Of a stretch of DNA of 64,000 nt, positions 5,540 to 6,560 are shown one piece after another. Each line of letters starts with the position of its first letter. The stretch's first letter is position 1. The position numbers and the translations under genes were made by a program. Below the pieces are notes generated by a model, which made no database searches, was not told where the DNA came from, and saw only the letters and a list, made by a program, of their open reading frames with translations. Origin of the DNA: Phycisphaerae bacterium (GTDB lineage: Bacteria > Planctomycetota > Phycisphaerae > Phycisphaerales > Phycisphaeraceae); the NCBI GenBank assembly GCA_030432595.1, contig JAUIGU010000003.1, forward strand, positions 1 through 64,000. Direction: 5' to 3'.

Positions 5540-6560
5540 GCAAACTTCATGGACGCCGAAGCTGTCCACGCACTCTCGGGTCGGAGAGTTTTCCTCGTTC
5601 CTTTCGTCGTCGCTGGTCTGTCTGGAGCTACCCAGACACGAACGAGCCGCCACTGCCTTGCAGCGGACATCGTCGGGCTCTCGCCCGCTTTCTACTCGGA
5701 ACACACTCCCACGCATCAGCATTTGAATCACAACGCCGACTAGCGTCGCACCGGGCATCACCCCGGCCGCTGAAGCGCTTCCCTGGTTAGCAACAAAAGT
5801 TGCCTGATGAGTCTCGTCGCTATCTCCGGTATGGAGAGGCTTGAATGCTTTGTGTGCCCGGAACCAACCGGGCCACAGTCGCCACGCCAAATCCTTAGCG
5901 TGCTTTCCTTGCACGAGGCTACAAGCTACAGGTACCCCAAGCATCAAGTCTTTGCGGTTTGGCACCGACTCTGCATCAGACTGACCGGCAAGCGGCTTTA
6001 TCCGCCTTTCACAGTTGAGCTATTCGCCGTGACCCATTTCCTAGTCATCGCCGAGCGTTGTCATCCGCCCGATTCAACGGAGTTTCCCCCGTCGAAGCTC
6101 CCTGCGCCGGCACACGTTGAACGCCCCAAACAGCTTCCCTGCTTCGGTCTTGCGACCGTGAGGCCAACCCCATGGGAGGATTTGGTGACACTTGGTCACC
6201 GCACCTACTTCTTCTGTCACGGCCTTCGCAGTTCGTGGTCGAACGTTGAAGGTCTTTCCCAGTCGCCCCGCCCACCTTGGCGGTTGAACCGCATCGGGTA
6301 GAACAATGGGATTACTCCTGTTCGAGATCCTTCTCGACCAGGGATTACTACATTGAGCGCCCGTTGATCTGGGCAAGCACCTCTCGATGCAACCCAGCTC
6401 GAAGAAACAGCCCATGGCGGTTGATAAATTCCGCCACCTTTCAACGGCATTAGCGGTGCCGTATCCCGGTTGTGCTGCTCCAACCCGAGGATGTCAGTCC
6501 GCAAAAGCGTACCGACCAGCTAGCCAACGGCTTGCTGTCAACGATGTACTGGCGTACATC
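5540..6560 (-). ncRNA. Candidate giant structured RNA, about 1 kb
   Basis: No believable protein gene exists on either strand between about 5,420 and 6,860, yet this block is an almost unbroken chain of perfect hairpins. Examples: TGGAC/GTCCA (5550-5568), ACTCTC/GAGAGT (5572-5589), a nested pair CTCGTTC/GAACGAG enclosing TGTCTGG/CCAGACA (5594-5646), CGGGC/GCCCG (5674-5687), CCGGG/CCCGG (5751-5766), GCAAC/GTTGC (5790-5803), TCTCC/GGAGA (5823-5837), GCCCGG/CCGGGC with TGTG/CACA (5851-5877), CGTGC/GCACG (5899-5915), CGGTC/GACCG (6145-6158), GGTGAC/GTCACC (6184-6200), CCGCC/GGCGG (6268-6283), TCGAGA/TCTCGA (6322-6337), TGGCGG/CCGCCA (6415-6436), ACGGCA/TGCCGT (6444-6462) and GATGTAC/GTACATC (6543-6560). 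Loops that are GNRA or UUCG when read on the minus strand (GAGA at 5679-5682, GCAA at 6150-6153, TTCG near 5557-5560) favour that strand. No group II intron domain V or reverse transcriptase is seen. Exact ends are not determined. Confidence 0.55.

Follow-up and report, generated by a model that had tools for sequence, protein, structure and literature searches.

What is encoded by a long stretch of bacterial DNA that is crowded with stems, lies within an ICE and holds no conserved coding gene? The question arises at 5540-6530 of the window (the whole stretch of DNA analysed, 64,000 nucleotides of a contig from a Phycisphaerae bacterium), where the first-pass annotation, made from the letters alone, saw no coding gene and proposed a giant structured RNA in a mobile element. 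The absence of a conserved coding gene is confirmed. The element is an ICE with a relaxase, VirD4, Trb proteins and a tyrosine integrase by a tRNA. The suggested comparison with shuffled sequences speaks for folding: the minus strand has a minimum free energy of -424.6 kcal/mol, with z = -6.8 against dinucleotide shuffles (plus strand, z = -3.5). The sequence makes it very probable that 6532-5389 of the minus strand is a circularly permuted (CP) group II ribozyme and that the gene behind it, in the same orientation, codes for a degenerate maturase. Roth et al. described this class of ribozymes ('T-large' RNA) in 2021 in Thermus, Firmicutes and Proteobacteria (PMC8637638); a full-text literature search returned no later paper on the class.

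Anatomy and class of the RNA

A blastn search covering 201 relatives finds matching loci outside the genus, within the same family and order, with ~60% nucleotide identity over about 900-930 bp. Homologues at ~60% nucleotide identity are found across Planctomycetota and in other phyla too. By blastn, the sampled genome of the same genus holds no homologue, and the plasmid and phage collections hold no similar DNA. The Rfam scan of the window, at gathering thresholds and at E <= 5, gives no match in the RNA region, GOLLD, ROOL, OLE and HEARO included. RF00029 (the D5-D6 part of group II introns) is nevertheless above threshold in nearly all homologues, and misses the window RNA because the D5 of the latter is slightly aberrant. 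In the homologues this match corresponds in position to the 5' portion of the window RNA, with ~700 nt of conserved RNA and then an ORF behind it. Read accordingly on the minus strand, the window RNA would comprise the following parts:

6493-6516, minus: hairpin GUCGGUACGC-UUUU-GCGGACUGAC, placed as P1 (PMC8637638); not conserved in the 52-sequence alignment
6407-6478, minus: P2 region; covarying 6478-6472/6413-6407, 6461-6456/6448-6443 and 6435-6431/6420-6416
6435-6416, minus: hairpin with the P2 loop, which pairs with the D2 loop (P2-D2 loop covariation)
6401-6407, minus: 5' flank of D5, a strand of the D4-base helix (partner 5596-5590), linking the end of D3 to the start of D5
6366-6400, minus: domain V (D5), GAGCUGGGUUGCAUC-GAGA-GGUGCUUGCCCAGAUC, from alignment and covariation (own covariance model, 102.7 bits); from the sequence, AGC triad 6399-6397, 2-nt UU bulge, GAGA loop
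6293-6365, minus: domain VI (D6), branch-point A 6299; UUCUAYCC.AU nearly invariant, D6 stems covarying
6269-6292, minus: 24-nt linker GCGGUUCAACCGCCAAGGUGGGCG between ..GAU and GGGCGA; predicted to become the RNA circle
6275-6270, minus: IBS1, inside the linker
6263-6268, minus: 5' splice-site block GGGCGA, conserved in at least 90% of sequences; cut expected between 6269 and 6268
5783-6262, minus: domain I (D1), ~20 covarying helices, closed by 6262-6259/5786-5783
5921-5926, minus: EBS1 GCUUGU, loop of hairpin 5933-5914; covaries with the linker and with a 3' hairpin
5711-5778, minus: domain II (D2), covarying helices and loop contacts
5597-5702, minus: domain III (D3) with conserved ACGACGAAAG; covarying helices, conservation
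5473-5481, minus: 3' anti-EBS1 segment CUACAAGCU, complement of AGCUUGUAG (5927-5919)
5389-5414, minus: 3'-terminal stem-loop GGUGGUCGA-GCCGUAAA-UCGACCACC, 93% paired, 8/9 bp covarying

The resulting order, P2-[D4 3' strand]-D5-D6-linker-D1-D2-D3-[D4 5' strand, 3' hairpins]-ORF, is not the canonical group II order D1-D6 with terminal splice sites. The features of the CP class are present: a D5 with the AGC triad and a 2-nt bulge, a D6 with a bulged branch A, both located 5' of D1-D4, and internal splice sites in reversed order, NU ... GGGCG, flanking a short linker. It is the position of D5-D6 at the 5' end that marks the circularly permuted class and hence the reading adopted here. The first-pass annotation had set group II introns aside for lack of a domain V; a slightly aberrant D5 is found at 6400-6366 of the minus strand and a D6 behind it, both at the end opposite to the usual one. 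The branch A (6299) lies 7 nt upstream of the 3' splice site between 6293 and 6292. Linkers of 12-85 nt are found in the homologues (published range for the class, 15-86 nt; PMC8637638), and the splice-site block of the C. testosteroni CP RNA is likewise GGGCG (PMC8637638). A GUGCG at 6207-6203, considered as the 5' splice site, was rejected; the conserved block is GGGCGA at 6268-6263. The D4-base helix (6406-6401/5595-5590) is 97% paired with 5/6 bp covarying in the 52 sequences, and reads UUUCUUC/GAGGAAA, 7 bp, in the window. As it pairs the sequence preceding D5 with that following D3, the permutation point would lie within D4.

The covariation behind this architecture was assessed at two scales. 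In the alignment of D5, D6, linker and 5' splice site, 18 of the 28 pairs exhibit compensatory double changes. The alignment of the whole RNA (52 full sequences, RNAalifold structure) returns the helices of D1, D2, D3 and P2 before D5 and the stem-loops after D3, most of them with many double changes. To guard against circularity, 283 pairs were predicted on 25 sequences and scored on 26 others: 92.7% of the held-out cells are paired, against 70.2 ± 0.35 after shuffling and 37-42% when the pairs are slid, and 1606 cells carry double changes, against 472 ± 19.5 in shuffled data. A covariance model of D5-D6 also reaches the published members of the class, with the whole set searched: the Thermus plasmids L028 and L027 match at E 9e-5 and 0.0024, the element being divergent from the AcpG gene, in the position that Roth et al. 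describe. In L027, the GGGCGACCUGGACAG block is letter-identical to that of planctomycete members. On pTT8, the same model finds no match.

The giant structured RNA thus stands, with homologues retrieved by blastn and stems that covary, and its limits widen. The span first drawn, 5540-6560, falls short of a conservation that runs from ~6478 (P2) to the 5414-5389 stem-loop, with the P1-like hairpin extending to ~6516. All stems quoted at the outset exist as letters; some are real and others are contradicted by covarying pairings. TGTCTGG/CCAGACA falls within a covarying D3 helix (5637-5632/5625-5618), whereas the 'perfect' CTCGTTC/GAACGAG (5594-5600/5640-5646) competes with two covarying pairings, 5596-5590/6407-6401 and 5601-5597/5702-5698. 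The GTCAGTCCGC/GCGTACCGAC hairpin exists, at the P1 position, but the flank 5' of the RNA is poorly conserved there.

The family may well be functional while the window copy is a decaying remnant that no longer splices; such a reading is unlikely, though it is the most serious of the alternatives. The window D5 is the only one in the alignment with one U too many (6391 or 6392) and with a G.A at the G of the triad, which may reflect impairment of the copy or a mistake in the assembly of that base. The failure of RF00029 on the window RNA and the missing homologue in the sampled same-genus genome go in the same direction. Conversely, the ORF is intact, the D5-D6 model still scores 102.7 bits, and at one position EBS1 and IBS1 have covaried, from C-G to G-U. 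The pairing of EBS1 with the 3' segment keeps at least 9 continuous pairs, the D4-base helix is retained in a shifted register and all five P2-D2 pairs are kept.

Predicted back-splicing and the partners of EBS1

Roth et al. observed back-splicing of the CP class in vitro (PMC8637638). By analogy, the branch A of D6 (6299) would attack the 5' splice site between 6269 and 6268 in the window copy, whereupon the 3' end of the linker, once released, would attack the 3' splice site between 6293 and 6292. The expected products are a 24-nt RNA circle and a T-shaped RNA with a 2'-5' branch.

All unpaired segments were scanned for covarying 4-bp matches, and three contacts were returned. The P2 loop (6426-6422) pairs with the D2 loop (5760-5756) with z 9.3 and 94.5% pairing, 5/5 pairs being present in the window; this is the P2-D2 loop contact that Roth et al. 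tested (PMC8637638). A D1 loop (6062-6059) contacts D2 at 5741-5738 (z 7.0). The strongest contact, with z 15.4, was unexpected: it joins the EBS1 loop (CUNNNUUC) to GGAANNNAG, which in the homologues is the loop of a 3' hairpin immediately preceding the ORF and holds the anti-EBS1 segment. In 29 distinct sequences, 92.3% of the cells of this pairing are paired and 41 show double changes; its covariation amounts to 0.506, against 0.191 ± 0.025 after shuffling and at most 0.122 when slid. The pairing of EBS1 with the end of the linker (IBS1) is also detected (78/129 cells against 47.8 ± 4.9 shuffled; 27/43 against 13.4 shuffled) and comprises 6 bp in the window, G.U pairs included. It is weaker than that with the 3' segment (109/129 cells against 60.4 ± 5.0). 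The main text of PMC8637638 makes no mention of an EBS1-3' hairpin pairing.

The fact that EBS1 pairs more strongly with the 3' hairpin than with the linker implies a switch or a product mimic, and the 3' segment resembles joined exons. The hairpin may mimic ligated exons (IBS1 plus delta') and capture EBS1 after the circle is made, or before EBS1 is needed. It could thereby act as a product-mimic lock against reversal and against attack on other nucleic acids, blocking or recycling EBS1. Both proposals are less certain than the splicing scheme. The hairpin could instead be a substrate: the branched RNA would reverse-splice into it in cis, circularise D1-D4 and join D5-D6 to the ORF tail, switching expression of the helper gene. 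The segment has what such a reaction would use, an IBS1-like GAANNN followed by an A able to pair with delta, its hairpin is located upstream of the ORF and its hold on EBS1 exceeds that of the linker. However, base pairs continue beyond the point where cleavage would occur, a sign of stable binding more than of turnover, and the substrate role is improbable.

The gene downstream of the RNA

The ORF begins 33 nt past the last stem-loop of the RNA:

4709-5356, minus: acpG-like ORF, 215 aa, AUG after a GAGGAG Shine-Dalgarno-like sequence

No convincing match to the ORF comes from Pfam, NCBIfam, PHROGs or PADLOC, RT and maturase HMMs do not detect the family, and a sequence search of the PDB returns no match. 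Two AlphaFold models, of the window protein (pLDDT 89.6) and of the L040 member (pLDDT 93.6), were compared with the PDB. The best VIA chains of both models are group II intron RTs, with Z 9.5-8.5 for the window and 9.9-8.6 for L040; these matches of the models have an rmsd of ~4 over 172-192 residues and span palm and thumb. DRT9, the G2L4 RTs and Prp8 (Z 7.2-7.9) rank next. A Z of 9-10 is a moderate level. Foldseek E-values are modest (~1e-3), with RTs or related polymerases as nearly all top matches, and the two models disagree on what comes first: group II RTs in one, retron and viral polymerases in the other. Therefore, the maturase assignment rests on the order of the VIA scores, the motif register and the genetic linkage taken together.

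The motif register comes from hhalign against seven group II-type RT proteins. The match is weak (E 0.087) and falls on motif C and RT7, with RYADDFMVF facing RYGRFWMLL and FLGF facing FHGY (in full, VRYIRYGRFWMLL over LRFVRYADDFMVF and FHGYEI over FLGFTL). YADD is lost in the window ORF (RYGRF), and none of the 61 members keeps both aspartates, a D occurring at the first position in one and at the second in none; in the same 61, the RT7-like motif retains its glycine and tyrosine almost without exception. With the YxDD motif absent, the family is not filed as RT, and with no member retaining both aspartates it has the appearance of a dead, Prp8-like mini-maturase. The modelled ORF product thus appears to be a catalytically dead, fingerless maturase built from the palm and thumb known from the maturases of group II introns. 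The first-pass annotation had reported no reverse transcriptase; an RT-derived gene seems to exist, too small and too degenerate for recognition by sequence.

A chance likeness, in which a ferredoxin-like alpha/beta protein followed by a helical bundle has nothing to do with maturases, has a low probability. It would fit the lack of a significant sequence match to any RT family and Z values only moderately above background for a palm-type fold, a common one. It would not readily explain why the top chains by Z, seven for L040 and nine for the window, are all group II intron RTs, nor why the match runs through palm and thumb in the proper order. Motif C and RT7 are where the best sequence alignment lands unprompted, and the gene is tied to a group II ribozyme.

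AcpG, the protein of the Thermus elements, had no known relatives in 2021 (PMC8637638). The ORF family aligns with it (TTHC007 family) in hhalign at E 3e-6 (probability 88%) and E 3e-5 (72%), colinearly over 163-165 columns, with no BLAST similarity. On these profile alignments, the ORF is probably a distant AcpG of the same family.

The linkage of gene and RNA holds across the family. The D5-D6 model finds the element at 54 of the 70 loci fetched by the protein, with E from 1e-14 to 1e-40. Among ORF loci with enough upstream sequence the RNA is present at 54/60, with L038 in addition, where D1 and D3 motifs are found; in relatives, 784-3010 nt separate D5 from the ORF start, with a median of 1314. 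Of 392 evenly sampled planctomycete genomes, nine have a strong RNA match (> 70 bits) and eight have the gene, 8/8 at RNA loci; weaker matches of the model (24-42 bits) are probably ordinary group II introns. Three acpG-like genes (L036, L041, L078) have no CP group II RNA detected upstream even with filters off, and no AcpG was found in viral contigs. On Leptolyngbya, Calothrix and planctomycete plasmids, related genes lie behind ~1.4-1.7 kb without annotated genes, in which D5-D6 is found; these plasmid relatives suggest a role in element maintenance.

Possible origin of the element and comparison with known systems

The position of the ORF is where a permutation within D4 would leave an intron-encoded protein (IEP). 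The order of RNA and gene may derive from an ordinary D1-D2-D3-D4(ORF)-D5-D6 intron permuted inside D4, just past the ORF. The gene would be what remains of the IEP, its RNA-binding palm and thumb kept, its fingers and catalytic aspartates lost, and the protein's sole role would be to assist folding and splicing, like that of Prp8 in the spliceosome. On balance, and with some reserve, the favoured view is that CP group II elements are whole retro-introns permuted in domain IV, with the IEP kept as a miniature dead-RT maturase (AcpG), in parallel to Prp8 and its ribozyme core, and with an exon-mimic hairpin as a switch once back-splicing has taken place.

The window element shares with the CP group II ribozymes of Roth et al. 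the order D5-D6-linker-D1-D2-D3, the GGGCG and NU blocks, the AGC triad, EBS1-IBS1, the P2-D2 pseudoknot, the plasmid or ICE setting and an AcpG-type gene nearby. It differs in its lineage (Planctomycetota/Cyanobacteria), in a gene fixed directly downstream on the same strand, in a second and stronger EBS1 partner in the 3' hairpin and in a protein recognised as maturase-like. With canonical group II introns and their IEPs (LtrA, GsI-IIC RT, T.el4h) it has in common domains I-VI, the branch A, EBS-IBS, an ORF beside the 5' strand of D4 and a protein with palm and thumb, whereas its domains are permuted, its splice sites internal and reversed, and its protein devoid of fingers, catalytic DD and endonuclease. 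The modelled protein resembles the RT/thumb of Prp8 as a dead RT palm and thumb that would serve a group II-like ribozyme core; Prp8 is a giant eukaryotic protein, in contrast to the 215-aa bacterial one, and the likeness in role is inferred. An unrelated giant ncRNA class such as GOLLD, ROOL or OLE, the likeness proposed at the outset from size, stem density and mobile-element setting, is refuted by the D5-D6, branch-site and splice-site evidence: those RNAs are also long and highly structured, but no covariance model of theirs matches at E <= 5, and the group II domain order, the P2-D2 contact and the matched Thermus CP members belong to another class.

The 2021 description left unsettled what AcpG is, whether it cooperates with the RNA and why permuted introns should always have lost their IEP. 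Against this background, RNA and gene are nearly always together in a fixed order, and the protein resembles the missing IEP stripped of reverse transcription. Three points appear new: the ORF for an apparently dead mini-maturase, its placement at the D4 permutation and the EBS1-3' hairpin pairing. A protein-assisted back-splicing ribozyme in bacteria, an independent Prp8-like dead RT and an in-cis exon mimic are thereby made testable, in a small and probably tractable RNP that would make RNA circles.

Several loci display variations on this architecture. In the Phycisphaeraceae isolate OFTM12 (L020), an ordinary group II intron (14846-12408, minus strand; GUGCG...CUAC, with its own RT gene) is inserted in the D5 hairpin of the CP RNA. 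Its joined flanks restore a normal D5 (AGAGCUGGAUGCCGCGAGAGU + GGCUUGUCCAGCUC), making it a natural twintron in a catalytic core. The same arrangement occurs in L044 and L006, and the RF00029 score of L006 stems from the inserted ordinary intron. Plasmid5 of Calothrix sp. NIES-4101 (L014) harbours two tandem CP copies, at 1627-1760 and 3778-3902 (plus strand), only the second being directly followed by an acpG-like gene. In L019 / L005 (Phycisphaerae LBMAG epi.bin3), the copy is decaying: a deletion has fused its mid-RNA sequence with the final third of the acpG-like gene.

The surroundings of the RNA in the window hold other features. An NYN-domain protein (PIN-like RNase family; 6814-7446, plus strand) is encoded divergently from the ribozyme. 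Inside the ICE, 7454-10258 (minus strand) encodes a 934-aa protein with a caspase domain (Peptidase_C14) and Sel1 repeats, a possible defence or signalling cargo, downstream of the gene of a sigma-70-like factor (11206-11880). Strong local folding (z to -5, minus strand) at 11901-12300 and 12901-13200, upstream of the relaxase gene, may correspond to an oriT or to an RNA. The tyrosine integrase gene (29144-30699) overlaps the tRNA (30626-30699), probably an attachment end of the ICE.
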